Positions 1,685 to 14,287 of a stretch of 33,274 nt of DNA are shown one piece after another. The notes beneath the pieces are model-generated. The model was given only the letters and a program-made list of their open reading frames with translations. It was not told where the DNA came from and did no database searches. The translations under genes and the position numbers were made by a program. The stretch's first letter is position 1. Every line of letters begins with the position of its first letter. Source of the DNA: Aliarcobacter sp. GTDB lineage: Bacteria > Campylobacterota > Campylobacteria > Campylobacterales > Arcobacteraceae. The stretch lies in NCBI GenBank assembly GCA_028703945.1, contig JAQVLW010000025.1, positions 1 to 33,274 of the forward strand, in the 5' to 3' direction.

Positions 1685-2203
1685 AAGAATAATTTTAACA
1701 TAATATTCATTATATTATATAGATAATCCAATTAATTGAGATTAAGTTTATATAATAATGTATTTTATAATGAATACCATATTAAATTAAAAGTTTCAAT
1801 CAAAACTTAATTAAATATTAATAGTATGCACGAGAGTAATGAGATAAAAATAAATACAAGCAATATATTAAAAATTATTTTTTAACATCTGTTTTCCGAC
1901 ACCTTTACCCTAAATCAAAAAAACTACTAAAAACCACCCAAATAATATACGACAAACACTATCGAATTGTATTGTGATACGAAAACTATATCAAAGAGGT
2001 TTTTTGTATATTAATAGGTTATAGAGTTTGACCTAATAATCAAAATTATAATTCTTAAGAATAAATTATTCTAGAAAAGTATTACATTATGCAATATATT
2101 TAAAACTAACTTTTTAAATATAGTAAAATTACATAGTTACTCTTATAAATAACTATAATAGATAATTATTAATTAATATAAAACTATTATAGTTATATAT
2201 CTA
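1685..2203. other. Long intergenic region between divergent AbiE operon and small-protein cassette
   Basis: About 520 bases with no convincing gene. It must hold the leftward promoter of the AbiE operon (AT-rich TATAAT-like hexamers near 1710-1720). It also has a perfect 12-base palindrome ATTCTTAAGAAT near 2056 and two elements related to the operator at 2245-2259: CTATAATAG at 2153-2161 and AACTATTATAGTT at 2182-2194 (six-base arms, one centre base). A short leftward open stretch around 1916-2000 has no start codon and no recognisable product. The rest is low-complexity AT-rich sequence. Confidence 0.5.
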
Positions 2204-2233
2204 TTGACAAATCATATTATAATAGGTTATACT
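2204..2233 (+). promoter_or_regulatory. Sigma-70-type promoter of the small-protein/RNase H-like cassette
   Basis: A consensus -35 TTGACA (2204-2209) is followed after 18 bases by TATACT (2228-2233). This hexamer pair sits 55 bases before the first ATG of the rightward cassette, and transcription should begin near 2240, just before the palindrome at 2245-2259. The same hexamer spacing and downstream palindrome recur at 10732-10789. Confidence 0.7.
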
Positions 2234-2244
2234 TACGAATATAA

Positions 2245-2259
2245 TATCTATTATAGATA
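2245..2259. promoter_or_regulatory. Palindromic operator candidate (TATCTAT-N-ATAGATA)
   Basis: A perfect inverted repeat with seven-base arms around one centre base (2252). It begins about five bases after the expected transcription start, a position where a bound repressor would block initiation. Its centre lies 19 bases after the end of the -10 hexamer, exactly as for the longer version at 10771-10789. The related element AACTATTATAGTT lies just upstream of the -35 box. The regulator is unknown; local candidates are the small HTH proteins encoded at 10331-10582, 12948-13217 and 4644-5099. Confidence 0.6.
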
Positions 2260-2287
2260 AGATTAAGAATTTAATAAGGAAAATATT

Positions 2288-2419
2288 ATGATAAACCATG
2301 ATTTAAAAGCAGCAGTTGATGAATTAAAAAGAAAAAAAGCAGCAGAAAAAAAATCATCATCAACAAAGAGAGTTTTTATTTTACTTCTTATTGTTTCATT
2401 AGCTATTTATTTTTTGTAA
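2288..2419 (+). CDS. Small single-pass membrane protein with possible -1 frameshift extension
   Basis: A 43-residue protein with an AAGGAAA ribosome site seven bases before the ATG. Residues 5-27 are a charged helix rich in Lys, Glu and Ala, and residues 29-43 are one hydrophobic membrane segment ending at the stop. The last codons read TAT TTT TTG TAA, which contains the heptamer T-TTT-TTG (2410-2416), a legitimate -1 slippery sequence, directly before the stop. A -1 slip would continue through 25 more codons to a TAA at 2491-2493, adding a charged coiled-coil tail (VKEKLVEKYERLKNLYDK and seven residues) and giving 68 residues. Whether this is programmed frameshifting, an indel mutation or chance cannot be told from the sequence. 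No homologue is recognised. Confidence 0.6.
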   Translation: MINHDLKAAVDELKRKKAAEKKSSSTKRVFILLLIVSLAIYFL

Positions 2420-2477
2420 AAGAAAAATTAGTTGAGAAATATGAAAGATTAAAAAATCTATATGATAAGGTAAACCA

Positions 2478-2591
2478 GTGTCAACAGAATTAACAATATT
2501 TTTAATAGTGTATGTAATGGCAATAGCAATTGCCATATTTTTTATTCAAAAGAATGAAAAATTAAAAGATAAAATCAATAAATTTTTTTAA
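2478..2591 (+). CDS. Tiny membrane protein (37 residues, GTG start)
   Basis: A GTG at 2478 preceded by AAGG at a spacing of seven bases opens a 37-residue frame. It consists of a short N-terminus, one hydrophobic segment (about residues 5-22) and a basic tail with Lys/Asn residues, the usual layout of an inner-membrane protein with a cytoplasmic C-terminus. It overlaps by 16 bases the extended frame that a -1 shift in the preceding gene would produce, so it may be translationally coupled to it. Twenty bases separate it from the next gene. It is too short for family assignment and could be non-coding. Confidence 0.45.
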   Translation: MSTELTIFLIVYVMAIAIAIFFIQKNEKLKDKINKFF

Positions 2592-2611
2592 CTAAACTAA
2601 GGAGTTAATTT

Positions 2612-2815
2612 ATGCAATACCCAAATACAATAATTGAATTAGATGTTTATTTTACAGAACAAAATAAAAAAAGATTTCTAAAACTTATGAATAAAAACTT
2701 TGATATTGATGAGAAAGATATAGATATTTATAAAGCAAATGATTATGCAAAAGATAGTGATTTTTCTTCAGAAATTTATGATCAAGTATTTAGAATTTTA
2801 GAAAAAGAAAATTGA
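2612..2815 (+). CDS. Hypothetical acidic 67-residue protein
   Basis: A 67-residue soluble protein with a strong AAGGAG ribosome site. It is rich in Asp, Lys and Ile/Leu with no Cys, and has an amphipathic C-terminal helix (I-Y-D-Q-V-F-R-I-L-E-K-E). No domain is recognised. Position in the middle of the cassette, 27 bases before the RNase H-like gene, suggests a function tied to that gene, either as a binding partner or as a small regulator. The acidic, helical character would fit an inhibitor or antitoxin, but that is only a guess. Confidence 0.65.
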   Translation: MQYPNTIIELDVYFTEQNKKRFLKLMNKNFDIDEKDIDIYKANDYAKDSDFSSEIYDQVFRILEKEN

Positions 2816-2842
2816 TTTTTTTTAATTGGAGTATAAATAAAC

Positions 2843-3595
2843 ATGTTATCAAAAAAAGACATAGTATTTTTACAAAGTGATGCAAGTTATAGTGAAAAAA
2901 ATAAATTTGCAAATATTAGTGTGTATGATACTTATCAAAATAAATTTTATAGTAACGATATTTTTAAAATAAAAAATTCAACTCAAGCAGAGTTTTATGC
3001 TTTAATTTTTTCAATAAAAATTGCAAACAAAAACAAATATAAAAATGTAATATTTGTATATGATTGCAATAGTTTGGATATAGAATCTCTAACACAATTT
3101 TGTAAAACCAAATGTGGCTTTTATAGCTTTCAATTTCTTTGGTTACCAAGAACTTTTCTTTTACAAACTGATGAATTAGCAAGAACAAATTTAAAACAAT
3201 TAATCAAAAAATATGATTTTAATTTAACCGATGAAGAACTAATAATAACATATAAAAAATCTGATTCTAAAAGAATATTACTATCAGTTTTTAACTATTT
3301 AGATGATACTTTTATAAATGAAAAAAAAGCAATTGAAATATATTTAGAAAATAAATACTCTTTATTAAGATTACAAAAAATCAGAATACAGAACCAAGAT
3401 ATTTTTAGATTTATTTATCATACGATTGATACAGATGAAAAGCAAAAGTTCTATGCTTTTTTTTCAACCATAATGCCAACAATTGAAAATTCGCCGACCT
3501 TTTTAAAGCAGCCCAAAAAGATTTTTTTAGCTGAAATTTTGAGAGATATTCTGAGTAAATTGAGATTAAAGAAGGATATATTGAAATCTAAATAG
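2843..3595 (+). CDS. RNase H-fold protein with unknown C-terminal domain
   Basis: A 250-residue protein. The first 115 residues fit the RNase HI fold: beta strand V-F-L-Q-S-D13-A-S, helix start T-Q-A-E50-F-Y-A-L, strand V-I-F-V-Y-D74-C-N-S-L and T-D110-E-L-A-R, giving the D-E-D-D tetrad that binds two metals in RNase H enzymes. In family knowledge, D-A-S at the first strand and the D-x-L-A-R helix are typical of plant-type or bacterial RNase HI. The C-terminal 130 residues are Lys-rich and mostly helical with no recognised domain. The likely activity is cleavage of RNA in RNA-DNA hybrids or of a structured nucleic acid. It is the last gene of the small-protein cassette, and I do not recognise a described family for the full protein. 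Confidence 0.7.
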   Translation: MLSKKDIVFLQSDASYSEKNKFANISVYDTYQNKFYSNDIFKIKNSTQAEFYALIFSIKIANKNKYKNVIFVYDCNSLDIESLTQFCKTKCGFYSFQFLWLPRTFLLQTDELARTNLKQLIKKYDFNLTDEELIITYKKSDSKRILLSVFNYLDDTFINEKKAIEIYLENKYSLLRLQKIRIQNQDIFRFIYHTIDTDEKQKFYAFFSTIMPTIENSPTFLKQPKKIFLAEILRDILSKLRLKKDILKSK

Positions 3596-4643: not shown

Positions 4644-5099
4644 ATGTCGAAGCAAATAAAAATAACTTGTGAAGTTATAACAAAAATGAGTGAAAATATT
4701 AGGGCAAAAAAACTAAAATTTTTTGCAAAAGTGACTGAAGAAATAAGTTTAGAGATACTCAAAATTAAGAAAAGAAATTTCCAGAAATTGAGAAATATAA
4801 ATATGTATAAAGATGCTACTAATGAGCTAATTGAGTTAGCTTCTCTGATTCTAGCGATTGATGAATATATGAAAACAATAAGTGAAGTTAGTCAACAGGC
4901 AATTAATTTAAAAGATAAAAATAGAGCAAAGAAGAACACAAAAAGTGATTTTTTGGCTGAAAATTGGTCTAAAGTAAAAGAATTAAAAAATGATATAGGA
5001 TATAGTTTTAGGAATATTTCAGAATATTTTAAGAAATATCATAGATTTTCTATTGCTCATACAACAATTCAGAACAAATGGAAAAAATTGGAAAACTAA
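4644..5099 (+). CDS. Hypothetical plasmid-type protein with C-terminal helix-turn-helix
   Basis: A 151-residue basic, helical protein. The N-terminal 100 residues form long Lys/Glu-rich helices (probable coiled coil, about 10-90). The C-terminus, from W-S-K-V-K-E-L-K-N-D-I-G-Y-S-F-R-N-I to the end, fits a helix-turn-helix of the kind used in small plasmid control and mobilisation proteins, with a second helix T-T-I-Q-N-K-W-K-K. It stands alone between long gaps. The palindrome over its ribosome site suggests autoregulation. Related proteins sit on plasmids and integrative elements, so a replication or transfer role is possible; no specific family is recognised. Confidence 0.6.
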   Translation: MSKQIKITCEVITKMSENIRAKKLKFFAKVTEEISLEILKIKKRNFQKLRNINMYKDATNELIELASLILAIDEYMKTISEVSQQAINLKDKNRAKKNTKSDFLAENWSKVKELKNDIGYSFRNISEYFKKYHRFSIAHTTIQNKWKKLEN

Positions 5100-6485: not shown

Positions 6486-7104
6486 ATATTTCCTTTAAAT
6501 AATTTTACCTAGTTTTTGACCTATGAATTTACTTCTAAATTATACAATAAGATATCATAAAATCAATACTAATAGGATTAATAAATATTAATAATGAATT
6601 TCTAAATAATATTTATTTTACCTATAGTTTTACTATTTTAGAAGATTTTAGAGGGAGAAAGCTTATTACTGTAGATATTTATTTATATGTTTAATAATGT
6701 TAATTAGCTTGTTCACTCTTTGTAAATTTGTATGTTTTTTTTTAAAAATGAACATGATTTAGAAAGCCCTAAAATAGAGCTTTTATATAGATCTTATAAA
6801 AAATAGAAACAGAAAAAAATAAATGAGTCTATTAAATTTTTTTATTCAAAAATATTGAACAAAAAAGTATGATATATTTTTAGTAATTTTAACTTTTTTA
6901 TTAATTGGGTAGATTAACAATCTATCAAGGTTTTCCATTATTTTTTTAAACGAAAAAGACTTTACGAGGTCTTATTTAGAAATATTGTTTAAAAAGAGCT
7001 CAAATGCAAGAGTTTGTAAATGCAGAATGACTTAACACTTAATGCCACAGATAGAGGCTGAACCTATCAAGAAAATCAAAATATTATATATTAAAGGCCA
7101 AAAA
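6486..7104. other. Intergenic region upstream of the integrase, with three hairpins; possible att region
   Basis: No gene is seen in about 620 bases. It contains a hairpin AAAGC-C-CTA / TAG-A-GCTTT at 6763-6783 followed by TTTTAT (terminator-like for an unknown rightward transcript), a perfect six-base hairpin TAGATT-AAC-AATCTA at 6910-6924, and AAGAC/GTCTT at 6956-6973. Inverted repeats this close to a tyrosine recombinase gene could be recombinase arm or core sites. I found no second copy of any of them in the window and no tRNA gene, so an attachment site cannot be named. Confidence 0.35.
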
Positions 7105-8022
7105 ATGCGTGGAAGCGTATATTATCAATCCAGTCAATTAGTAAAGCAAATCTTTGTTGAGGGTGCAAAAAAACAAGATAGAGTTAATCCAAACCATCAA
7201 CATTATCAACTAATTGCTTCATATAAAACAATGGAGAGTTATAGAAATATTTGGAATAACTTTTTTAACTATTTATTGGAGCATTGGAAAATAAAAGATT
7301 TTGAAAAAATTAGTTCAGAGCATATTGCAGCTTATATGGATTATAAAATAGAATACTATCCTTCAAAACAATATTTAGAAAAGATTAGTGCATCATTATG
7401 TAAGTTAGAAATAGCTTTAAAACTATTTGCCAAAAATATTCATGGAGTTGAAAGAGATTATGATTTCTCAATTCGTCAAACAATTTTAGATAATGCAAGA
7501 GATTTAAAATTAGTTGCTTCCAATTATCATAATCGTGCTTATTCAAATCCTAAGCTTTTAATTTCAAATTTAAGGGATGATTATCATAGATTAGCAGCAA
7601 TAGTTCAATATGAGGGTGGTGCAAGAATTGAAGGTGTTGCCCTTATTAAACCTGAACAATTAATGGGTACTAAAATCGATCCTATTACAAATAATGAAGT
7701 TGGAGTAATTGTTACAAAAGAAAAAGGTGGAAAAGTTGGCGAGGTATTAATAAACCTTGATACGTATAAAAAATTAGAATCATACTTTCAAGAACATGAT
7801 AAATTTAAGATCAATAGACAAGCTTATTACAATGATATAAAACAATCAGCAATTACTTCAAATGAGAATCAAGAAGCAAGTCATGGTCTTCGTTGGAACT
7901 TTGCTAAAAGAAGAATGTTTGAATATGGGAAAGCGGAATTCAAATATGAAGTGTGTTTACAGCAAGTTAGTCATGAGATGAAGCATAATCGTGCAAGTAT
8001 AACCAAGTATTATTTAGCTTAA
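7105..8022 (+). CDS. Tyrosine recombinase/integrase
   Basis: A site-specific recombinase of the phage-integrase family; all catalytic elements are visible. The N-terminal half is a SAM-like core-binding domain (about residues 50-130). The catalytic domain has R174 in Y-E-G-G-A-R-I-E-G, a Lys in the beta hairpin V-T-K-E-K-G-G-K, H260-G-L-R263, H294 in M-K-H-N-R-A-S-I-T, and the nucleophile Tyr in K-Y-Y-L-A at the very C-terminus (residue 303, possibly 302). I choose the ATG at 7105 because TAAAGG lies at a good distance before it; an upstream in-frame ATG at 7042 has no ribosome site. It probably moves or moved the surrounding accessory region. Nearby palindromes are candidate binding sites. 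Confidence 0.85.
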   Translation: MRGSVYYQSSQLVKQIFVEGAKKQDRVNPNHQHYQLIASYKTMESYRNIWNNFFNYLLEHWKIKDFEKISSEHIAAYMDYKIEYYPSKQYLEKISASLCKLEIALKLFAKNIHGVERDYDFSIRQTILDNARDLKLVASNYHNRAYSNPKLLISNLRDDYHRLAAIVQYEGGARIEGVALIKPEQLMGTKIDPITNNEVGVIVTKEKGGKVGEVLINLDTYKKLESYFQEHDKFKINRQAYYNDIKQSAITSNENQEASHGLRWNFAKRRMFEYGKAEFKYEVCLQQVSHEMKHNRASITKYYLA

Positions 8023-8113: not shown

Positions 8114-8470
8114 TTGTTAACATTTACATTTAATGGTGATGGAGTAAAAACTTGTAAATGTTGTGAAAAAAAAATGTCTTCAAAAGGTGGATTATATGAA
8201 GGTGTTTGTTCATCTACTTGCTCATCCCAACAATTAGAATATAATTCAATACCAATAAGCTTACTTTTTATAAAAAGAATATATACCCATATAAATGATG
8301 AAAAAATAAGAGAAGAAGAGATTGAAAAGTTTATTAAAATTAACAAACTAAATAAAGATATGACAAAACATAAAATAAAAAGGGTTTCTAAATATTTTTT
8401 ATCAAATGAACTTGATAAATTAGAAATTATAAGAAATTTGATTTATCATATAAACCATAAAGGAGAGTGA
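8114..8470 (+). CDS. Hypothetical small protein with N-terminal cysteine cluster
   Basis: A 118-residue protein starting at TTG with an AAGGAAG site eight bases upstream; no ATG lies nearby in frame. C14-K-C16-C17 and C32-S-S-T-C36 could form a small zinc-binding knuckle. The remaining 80 residues are Lys- and Ile-rich helices. It follows the integrase by about 90 bases on the same strand and ends in a terminator shared with hipA. No family is recognised; a small DNA- or RNA-binding protein of the element is plausible. Confidence 0.6.
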   Translation: MLTFTFNGDGVKTCKCCEKKMSSKGGLYEGVCSSTCSSQQLEYNSIPISLLFIKRIYTHINDEKIREEEIEKFIKINKLNKDMTKHKIKRVSKYFLSNELDKLEIIRNLIYHINHKGE

Positions 8471-10330: not shown

Positions 10331-10582
10331 CTACTTCTTCTCTAAAGTTTTTGCAACTTTTGAAAGCTCTTTCATTAAATAATCATATTTTCTAGATTTC
10401 TCATAGTGTTCTAAAAATGGTGTAATCCATTTTGGAACAGGTATTATTTTATCATTTGTTTTAAATCCCCAATTATTAATTGTTGAATAAGGTATATCAG
10501 CAATTATTGAGAAATCCTTAATTGATATATTTAACTCTTTTAATTTTGCGTTAAACTCTTCTTTTGTCATAAAAATATCCAT
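10331..10582 (-). CDS. Small helix-turn-helix regulator
   Basis: An 83-residue protein with an N-terminal Cro-like HTH: F-N-A-K-L-K-E-L-N-I-S-I-K-D-F-S, turn, I-P-Y-S-T-I-N-N-W as the recognition helix, followed by V-P-K-W-I-T-P-F-L and a Lys-rich helical tail. Such proteins occur widely on Campylobacterota plasmids and prophages as regulators. It is transcribed away from the membrane/zinc-ribbon gene at 10819, whose promoter lies about 150 bases upstream, making it a local candidate for the factor that binds the palindrome at 10771-10789. An alternative start at the fifth codon (ATG) would still keep the domain. Confidence 0.7.
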   Translation of the reverse strand: MDIFMTKEEFNAKLKELNISIKDFSIIADIPYSTINNWGFKTNDKIIPVPKWITPFLEHYEKSRKYDYLMKELSKVAKTLEKK

Positions 10583-10731: not shown

Positions 10732-10761
10732 TTGACAAGCATAACTTAATTAGATTATAAT
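10732..10761 (+). promoter_or_regulatory. Sigma-70-type promoter of the membrane/zinc-ribbon gene
   Basis: A perfect TTGACA (10732-10737), an 18-base spacer and a perfect TATAAT (10756-10761) lie 57 bases before the ATG at 10819. It is the strongest consensus promoter in the window and shares spacing and downstream palindrome with the promoter at 2204-2233. Confidence 0.75.
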
Positions 10762-10770
10762 TACTTAAAT

Positions 10771-10789
10771 ATTATCTATAATAGATAAT
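10771..10789. promoter_or_regulatory. Palindromic operator candidate (ATTATCTAT-N-ATAGATAAT)
   Basis: A perfect inverted repeat with nine-base arms and one centre base at 10780, 19 bases after the end of the -10 hexamer. The inner 15 bases match the operator at 2245-2259 except at the centre base. Position just after the transcription start suggests repression. Confidence 0.65.
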
Positions 10790-10818: not shown

Positions 10819-11070
10819 ATGGAAAGTTTATTAACATTAATAACAATAATTGGACTTATATATTTGATTTTTAAGATTTCAAGATTATATTATGACAAGC
10901 CAACATTGCAAGAGTATGTAGAACAAAATCCTCAATGTAATACTGGAAATGGAATTAAATGTTTTAATTGTGGCTCAAAATCTATTAAAAATTGGGGAAT
11001 AACAAATCCGAATAGTTATAATCGAATTCATATATGTAATCATTGTGGGATACAGTTATATAGAAGCTAA
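10819..11070 (+). CDS. Small membrane protein with C-terminal zinc ribbon
   Basis: An 83-residue protein with an AAGGAAA site. Residues 3-22 are one hydrophobic membrane segment. After a short linker, residues about 48-80 hold C-F-N-C-G-S and, after about 24 residues, C-N-H-C-G, two C-x2-C knuckles that should bind one zinc ion as a zinc ribbon. The layout suggests a membrane-anchored cytoplasmic zinc ribbon, a form used as an adaptor for nucleic acid or protein binding. It is a single-gene unit with its own strong promoter and operator, closed by a hairpin terminator. The operator is shared with the RNase H-like cassette, which hints at joint function. No family is recognised. Confidence 0.75.
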   Translation: MESLLTLITIIGLIYLIFKISRLYYDKPTLQEYVEQNPQCNTGNGIKCFNCGSKSIKNWGITNPNSYNRIHICNHCGIQLYRS

Positions 11071-11682: not shown

Positions 11683-12285
11683 TTAAAATATATTAACAAT
11701 ACTTTTTGTTGCTTCTTTTTCTAATATAGGCATTGCTTCATTTAAATCTAAATTAGTTTTAACAGCTTCACAATAAACTCTAGTATTTTCATTTGAATTA
11801 TTCAAGTTATTTACAACTTGAATATCAATAACTGTTCTAAAAGTTTCATCTTCTAAAGCTTTTCCTATTAATCCACTTGCTAGTGCTGCAGTTGCACCAA
11901 TAATTAAAGAATTACTTCCAGTATAACCAGATGCTAATGCTGTAACTCCTCCAAATACTCCTCCAACAGCAGTTGCTTGAATAGCTCTCGCTTCTTTTAG
12001 ATTATTTGCAAATAAAACATTTACAAATAGACTATAAGATGCTTTTTGACTAGAATCAACTATCTCATAACCTTTAGCTTTAAATGAATTTATAATGTTT
12101 TCATTTAAATTCATTTTTTCACCACCACTATTAGCAGTGTTTGTAACTTGTAAATAAATGGTTTTATTTGTAAGCTTAGAGTGATCAATTACAATTGTTC
12201 TTGTTAATTTAGAATTGGTTTCTAACTGCATTGTTGCACAACCTATAAATAAAAGTAGACAAATTAAAATATAAAACTTATTCAT
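11683..12285 (-). CDS. traT: TraT-family complement resistance/surface exclusion lipoprotein
   Basis: A 200-residue outer-membrane lipoprotein with a short signal and lipobox (F-I-G-C15). The sequence follows TraT throughout: T-I-Y-L-Q-V-T-N-T, then F-K-A-K-G-Y-E-I-V, then S-Y-S-L-F-V-N-V-L, a Gly/Ala-rich hydrophobic middle (G-G-V-F-G-G-V-T-A-L-A and A-A-L-A-S-G-L-I-G), R-T-V-I-D-I-Q-V and the C-terminus N-L-D-L-N-E-A-M-P-I-L-E-K-E. TraT on F-like plasmids blocks entry of a second plasmid and gives serum resistance; chromosomal homologues occur. No conjugation genes are nearby, so it may be a remnant of a conjugative element or an independent envelope gene. Confidence 0.85.
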   Translation of the reverse strand: MNKFYILICLLLFIGCATMQLETNSKLTRTIVIDHSKLTNKTIYLQVTNTANSGGEKMNLNENIINSFKAKGYEIVDSSQKASYSLFVNVLFANNLKEARAIQATAVGGVFGGVTALASGYTGSNSLIIGATAALASGLIGKALEDETFRTVIDIQVVNNLNNSNENTRVYCEAVKTNLDLNEAMPILEKEATKSIVNIF

Positions 12286-13639: not shown

Positions 13640-13819
13640 TCATCTTCAAAAGTATGTTTATAGACGACAAATATTAAAAAATTTAGCAGAAAAATATAGA
13701 CGAAGTATTTCATGGATTAGAAAGCAAATATTAGATTATGAAACACCTAAAAAGTTTATATAAGAGTAGTTATATTGGTTTGTGATGCAATTTTTTACGG
13801 TAAACGATGATAGGTTTCC
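13625..13819 (+). pseudogene. Transposase remnant (IS256-like, variant zinc-binding type)
   Basis: A decayed internal part of a transposase. The first frame reads K-Y-V-Y-R-R-Q-I-L-K-N-L-A-E-K-Y and S-I-S-W-I-R-K-Q-I-L, a helix-turn-helix typical of these transposases (Y-x-x-K-Q-T-L-x-Q-L). It stops at TAA 13761-13763. A shifted frame from 13766 then reads V-V-I-L-V-C-D-A-I-F-Y-G-K-R, the region of the first DDE aspartate, and a further one-base shift gives D-D-R-F at about 13808-13819. Coding matches end where the Cas9 fragment begins on the other strand. Both ends of the element are missing. The family name is from memory and is the less certain part. Confidence 0.6.
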
Positions 13820-14287
13820 ATTATCTTTCTTTTTTTCTTGATTTAATCCTAATTTTTCACAAAATTCTTCAAGTAAATCATCTGTATCAAGAGATTTATA
13901 ACCTCTATGTTTTGCGATTAAATATAAAATTGAAAAAAGTTCTTGAAATGTTAATTTTTCTTCAAAAGCTTTTTTTGCTCTTAATCCCCATTTATTTATA
14001 AATAGATTTTCCTTTTCTTGATTTAGAAAATCTTCTTTCTTAGCAAATCCAAAATCTTCAAAAAGTTTTGAGAGATTCTTTTTTCGTTCTTTTCTTAATT
14101 CATAAAGTTTTTTCGTTGATTTAATTTGACTATGTATTAATTTTTTTGAATTTCCATCTTTGTCATAAGGAGTATCAAACATATTAACACCATAATCAAT
14201 TAGGGAGTATTTATCATTATCTAGTTCATTTAAAACTGAATAACCAATAGAGGTAATACCTAAATTTATAGACAATAGCTTTTTCAT
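13820..14287 (-). pseudogene. cas9: Cas9 N-terminal fragment, truncated and RuvC-inactive
   Basis: About 156 codons of the N-terminus of a type II Cas9. Residues 4-17 are the RuvC-I segment (L-L-S-I-N8-L-G-I-T-S-I-G-Y-S), but position 8, Asp in active Cas9, is Asn here (AAT codon). A basic bridge-helix region follows (S-T-K-K-L-Y-E-L-R-K-E-R-K-K), then the conserved W-G-L-R-A-K-K-A-F-E-E-K-L and L-I-A-K-H-R-G-Y-K-S. Homology ends at about residue 156; the frame runs on as an artefact to a stop at 13736. The remaining roughly 80-85% of Cas9, cas1, cas2 and any array are absent from the window. The junction with the transposase remnant is sharp, at 13819/13820. It is non-functional as a nuclease. 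Confidence 0.85.

Follow-up and report, generated by a model that had tools for sequence, protein, structure and literature searches.

A predicted RNase H1-type nuclease as optional cargo of a putatively repressed membrane-protein operon in mobile elements of Aliarcobacter

A small cassette of an Aliarcobacter genome encodes a mobile-element variant of RNase H, which appears to be carried as an option by a membrane-protein operon that is probably under repressor control. The window, the whole stretch of 33,274 nucleotides that was analyzed, is contig C49 of this 2.33-Mb genome. We read the cassette as the partly deleted 3' end of a repressed accessory operon whose RNase H cargo probably acts against competing replicons, a reading to which we give somewhat short of an even chance; the operon as a whole would be hosted by an integrative or plasmid-borne element of Aliarcobacter. 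The original prediction had proposed an undescribed anti-phage or toxin system, in which a nuclease works with membrane partners and a small acidic protein. The feature is real and conserved, but this interpretation of it was overstated. The positions of all features are collected in Table 1.

Table 1. Features of the cassette and of the surrounding element in the window
Feature	Position	Strand	Basis or remark
Pair of palindromic operators upstream of the promoter, AACTATAATAGAT (2151-2163) and AACTATTATAGTT (2182-2194)	2151-2194	+	Pattern scan; 29-nt palindrome
Promoter TTGACA-N18-TATACT	2204-2233	+	Sequence pattern
Main operator ATCTATTATAGAT	2246-2258	+	Palindrome, 12 nt past the -10 box; architecture as at the promoter at 10732
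43-aa ORF, what a deletion left of the N-terminus of a ~102-aa membrane protein (M0/M1 family)	2288-2419	+	hmmsearch, translations
Phd/YefM-like gene remnant '...VKEKLVEKYERLKNLYDKVNQCQQN'	2418-2495	+	Frame 1, other than that of the 43-aa ORF; E 4e-4
37-aa single-TM protein, GTG start	2478-2591	+	84% to paralogue; dN 0.109, dS 1.14 vs L017
67-aa acidic protein, family S, net charge -5	2612-2815	+	Found elsewhere without RNase H too
250-aa RNase H-fold protein	2843-3595	+	Alignment of homologues, AlphaFold model, structural match
151-aa predicted DNA-binding protein	4644-5099	+	HMM map
Tyrosine recombinase of the element, 'MRGSVYYQSS' family	7042-8022	+	Common to related elements
Cys-rich 118-aa gene	8114-8470	+	92% DNA identity to L017 9185-9540
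HTH protein, candidate cassette repressor	10331-10582	-	Homologues divergent from membrane operons
Second promoter and operator, TTGACA-N18-TATAAT-N12-ATCTATAATAGAT	10732-10786	+	Between HTH gene and 83-aa gene
83-aa TM and zinc-ribbon protein	10819-11070	+	Divergent from HTH; operator as at the cassette
TraT-family lipoprotein of the element	11683-12285	-	PF05818, E 8e-34

The AlphaFold2 model of the 250-residue protein (pLDDT 87) arranges its strands and helices in the RNase H order. Residues 5-120 form an RNase H1 fold, as anticipated from the sequence, and the best structural match is the archaeal RNase H1 of Halobacterium (PDB code 4e19; Z 15.2, with 113 residues aligned at an rmsd of 2.2). 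The full tetrad D13, E50, D74 and D110 falls on strand 1, helix A, the end of strand 4 and helix C, a placement judged from the secondary-structure positions of the model. These four residues are invariant in 11 aligned homologues with 25-79% identity to the window protein, and R103 and W100 are likewise invariant. The Pfam model PF13456 (RVT_3) scores 19.6 bits, below its cut-off of 21.6, and covers residues 45-78 only; no sequence relative of the protein was found in the PDB. Comparison with RNase H1 (4e19, and the LC11-RNase H1 3u3g) shows the same fold, the same order and position of the tetrad and an arginine seven residues before the last aspartate, which we take to be the archaeal-type counterpart of His124 in E. 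coli. The window protein differs from these enzymes by the sub-cut-off RVT_3 score, by an extra basic helical domain at the C-terminus and by its mobile-element context.

The C-terminal part (residues ~126-250) is modeled as a confident, basic, all-helical domain, also when predicted alone (pLDDT 88, pTM 0.81). The original prediction had called this part unknown, and our searches agree: the domain alone gave no Foldseek match in the PDB at E <= 0.001 and a best VIA hit of Z 2.3, although a new fold is not thereby proven. Each of eight homologues examined for charge has a basic domain here (+5 to +23), and the domain is duplicated in the Sulfurimonas homologues. Its charge suggests that it binds nucleic acid, and as modeled the protein is predicted to be a nuclease of the RNase H1 type whose tail would hold nucleic acid. 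An N-terminal RNase H followed by a second domain is found as well in the mycobacterial bifunctional RNase H of the Rv2228c type (3hst). The C-terminus of Rv2228c is a CobC-like phosphatase, unlike the small helical domain seen here.

The control region of the cassette is well supported. Four matches to the operator motif AWCTATWATAGWT are present in the window, against 0.05 expected in the pattern scan, and the composite TTGACA-N18-TATAMT-N12-ATCTATWATAGAT occurs exactly twice (2204 and 10732) and in none of 100 shuffles. Over the whole 2.33 Mb of the genome, the 15-bp operator core TATCTATWATAGATA is found only at 2245 and 10773. The promoter and operator originally proposed for the cassette can thus be taken as real; the second composite stands beside the HTH gene, 8 kb from the cassette, whose product is the likely repressor. 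The assignment of the HTH protein as the likely repressor follows its position and the shared sites only. Among other Aliarcobacter loci of the same element family (L066, L067 and L099-L103), the promoter spacing is the same or nearly the same and the palindromes are slightly different. A homologous HTH gene in Sulfuricurvum lies upstream of a membrane-protein operon that includes the RNase H gene.

The small genes tell of a deletion. Two tiny membrane proteins had been described; the 37-aa protein is real and under purifying selection, but the 43-aa ORF does not stand as an intact membrane protein. Its similarity is confined to the N-terminus of a 102-aa membrane protein in the paralogous element L017 (hmmsearch E 2e-4), and tail codons of a Phd-like gene follow directly 3' of its stop in another frame, which argues that a deletion removed about three genes. 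Lost in this way were the 3' part of the first gene, another two membrane genes and the greater part of the Phd-like gene. The acidic 67-aa protein is a real ORF, as proposed. The 250-aa gene is present once more in this genome, on contig C78, in a copy with 80% identity to that of the window. The dN/dS values against this paralogue (~0.1 for the 37-aa gene, ~0.2 for the 67-aa and 250-aa genes, with both domains of the latter constrained) indicate purifying selection over a time that includes the one before the deletion. The Phd-like gene of the paralogue is frameshifted.

Between the cassette and the HTH gene lie Fic and HipBA genes with a cargo-like look. The 151-aa protein has a homologue directly downstream of the RNase H gene in genome G021 (L018), and the Cys-rich 118-aa gene adjoins the RNase H gene in L017. 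The cassette had been placed next to AbiE and TOTE; the AbiEi/AbiEii pair does adjoin it, but no TOTE ORF or family match was seen beside AbiE within the window. On related plasmids the AbiE homologues do have a TOTE-like helicase gene beside them, and on the Aliarcobacter plasmids L102 and L105 the block helicase (TOTE-like)-AbiEii-AbiEi, with an AbiE pair close to that of the window, stands between two membrane-protein cassettes. Among the window ORFs no Zot, secretin, Rep or coat genes were seen around the cassette; of the nuclease homologues, only the one in genome G023 is part of a filamentous prophage. Farther downstream, a 183-aa ORF (13736-14287, minus strand) looks by eye like an N-terminal (RuvC-I) fragment of Cas9, the rest of which is apparently absent. 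The segment 15141-33130 resembles a copper- or heavy-metal-handling cluster as read from translations only (outer-membrane efflux protein, RND pump, P-type ATPases, multicopper oxidase, two response regulators and a sensor kinase).

Homologues of the nuclease are few. The single protein matched in 8 of 397 Campylobacterota genomes and the profile in 16 genomes, several of these matches being weak or single-domain. The homologues are carried by Aliarcobacter elements with a tyrosine recombinase (the window, L017 and L018), by a filamentous prophage that encodes Zot, a secretin and a GPA-type Rep (L020, G023), and by plasmids of Sulfuricurvum and Sulfurimonas as well as Sulfurimonas MAGs. Genome G021 belongs to the same genus, Aliarcobacter, and its loci L018 and L019 were counted as one because 47.6 kb are identical up to the ends of the two contigs (C8 and C11), probably an assembly duplicate. 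Short single-domain RNase H matches (G009, G011, G033 and G409) were set aside as another branch without the C-terminal domain. An initial alignment (A3) proved too heterogeneous for pattern scanning. No relative was found in viral contigs, scanned with the single window and prophage proteins and with an alignment, or in a phage collection scanned with the window protein; our literature search turned up no paper that describes such an RNase H from an inovirus or a plasmid.

Upstream of the related element in G021 (L018/L061, contig C8) is a type II CBASS-like operon with a CD-NTase-like protein (333 aa), an E1/E2-like protein (561 aa), a JAB-like protein (164 aa) and a membrane protein (356 aa). 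In the segment 3388-9995 of L047 (G009), a short single-domain RNase H gene (157 aa) overlaps an SbcD-like gene and stands beside an SbcC-like gene and one of 697 aa; the group may form a further nuclease operon. In three separate loci (L006, L022 and L052) the RNase H gene has a gamma-glutamylcyclotransferase-like gene a short distance upstream, and a DUF2130 gene is nearby in the Sulfurimonas loci L006 and L051.

The relation of the nuclease to the membrane-protein operon is loose. Profiles of the small genes recover the order HTH / M1-M2-M3-M4-(Phd)-(67 aa) in seven loci (L066, L067 and L100-L104), some of them on Aliarcobacter plasmids, and RNase H adjoins the operon in 0 of these 7. The order in L017 and L018 is M1-M2-Phd-67aa-RNase H, so that the nuclease is best described as a 3' option of the operon; these two loci also bear out the proposed co-occurrence of RNase H homologues with the small genes. 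A similar membrane-protein operon without RNase H is thus present in at least seven Aliarcobacter loci besides the window, the RNase H gene occurs without the operon in the filamentous prophage and the Sulfurimonas loci, and the 67-aa gene occurs without RNase H in four genomes. The nuclease is therefore optional cargo, and a system built around it from nuclease, membrane proteins and inhibitor is not what the loci show. Membrane proteins of Sulfuricurvum (158 and 207 aa) were considered as homologues of the Cys-containing ones of Aliarcobacter and rejected: the pattern is suggestive, but the HHalign probability is ~7% or less. The proposal of one undescribed defense system is in part upheld by the fold and by the co-occurrence, so that neither of the two outcomes named beforehand as refuting it was obtained. 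PADLOC gave no match to a described defense family for the 250-aa and 67-aa proteins. The proposal is supported only partly because the arrangement is not fixed and the membrane partners are not obligatory; a defense role of the cassette is possible.

Comparison of two filamentous prophages leads to the same view of the nuclease. The prophage of the window's own genome (contig C7) and the RNase H-bearing prophage of G023 are collinear, with blocks of 74-88% DNA identity and rep genes that are 84% identical. The slot after Rep holds RNase H in the G023 prophage versus an unrelated 195-aa ORF in the C7 prophage (L123 1191-1778, minus strand; no Pfam match). As the content of this slot differs between collinear prophages, RNase H behaves as accessory cargo. 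Accessory hot spots of filamentous prophages in Vibrio often hold defense genes (PMC11630473), and an accessory module of a Pf prophage (Pf KKP) serves both to control prophages resident in the same cell and to defend against lytic phages (PMC11341870). The RNase H gene is likewise optional cargo at a variable slot of a filamentous prophage and is found in other mobile elements too; the proteins here differ from those of the Pf KKP and Vibrio modules.

Under the reading that we favor, repressed accessory cargo, the HTH protein would keep the operon off in the resident element. Entry into a new cell, excision or the arrival of another element would leave the repressor absent or titrated, and the operon would be turned on. 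The C-terminal domain of the nuclease would then hold nucleic acid while the RNA strand of RNA-DNA hybrids such as primers and R-loops is cut by the RNase H domain, and this cutting would disturb the replication or the transcription of competitors, be they phages, plasmids or co-resident prophages. The small membrane proteins may belong to the same program of exclusion or maintenance, without being obligatory partners of the nuclease. This reading draws on the fold, the tetrad and the basic C-terminal domain, on purifying selection in both domains, on the shared promoter-operator, on the presence or absence of RNase H in similar elements and at the prophage slot, on the mobile-element setting and on the precedent of the Pf and Vibrio modules. 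Against it count the lack of a PADLOC match, the loss of most membrane genes from the window operon and the post-Rep position of the gene in the prophage, which fits a replication role as well.

That role is the main rival. An element could carry its own RNase H to clear RNA primers and R-loops during replication or excision, with no action on competitors, and the RNase H1 fold with its tetrad, the location directly after Rep and the carriage by plasmids would all suit it. The C7 prophage with its 84%-identical rep DNA nevertheless does without RNase H, as do similar elements, and no replication gene was seen next to the RNase H gene in the window; we regard this explanation as somewhat unlikely. 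A leftover in decay, that is, an operon cut by deletion whose surviving genes have no present function in the strain, would account for the remnants of membrane and Phd-like genes in the window, for the split RNase H ORF in G342 and for the frameshift in the paralogue. It appears improbable given an intact promoter, operator and 37-aa, 67-aa and 250-aa genes, and given the dN/dS of 0.1-0.2 between the paralogues, though this includes time before the deletion.

A toxin-antitoxin or abortive-infection system, with the RNase H-fold protein as toxic nuclease, the acidic 67-aa protein as inhibitor and the Phd-like protein as regulator, seems to us quite improbable. The 67-aa gene precedes the RNase H gene in three loci (S-R order), an acidic protein is paired with a basic nuclease, and in relatives of the cassette a Phd-like gene lies upstream of the 67-aa gene and overlaps it, as small genes do in Phd/YefM type II systems. 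Unlike those systems, the Phd match of the relatives reaches 22.4 bits against a cut-off of 29.8 and the window gene is a remnant only; no toxin family match was found. The explanation is weakened because the 67-aa and Phd-like genes coexist without the nuclease in three mapped loci (L066, L067 and L100). Most RNase H homologues lack the 67-aa gene, and the window has lost its Phd-like gene with RNase H intact.

Returning to accessory cargo, a bolder and, in our estimate, unlikely form of it would make these proteins an undescribed family of anti-replicon effectors. Its nuclease, of the RNase H1 type and under the control of a repressor, would have a new, sometimes duplicated, helical module for binding nucleic acid and would be accompanied by small membrane proteins of a new family. 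In Campylobacterota it would travel on plasmids, integrative elements and filamentous prophages and cut RNA primers or R-loops of competing mobile elements. What emerges is a small mobile-element RNase H family with an uncharacterized C-terminal domain, tied to an operator, a candidate repressor and recurring membrane-protein operons of Aliarcobacter; for none of these did the libraries searched contain a family model. Should the nuclease indeed attack competing replicons, mobile elements would be using RNA-DNA hybrids as a target in their conflicts.
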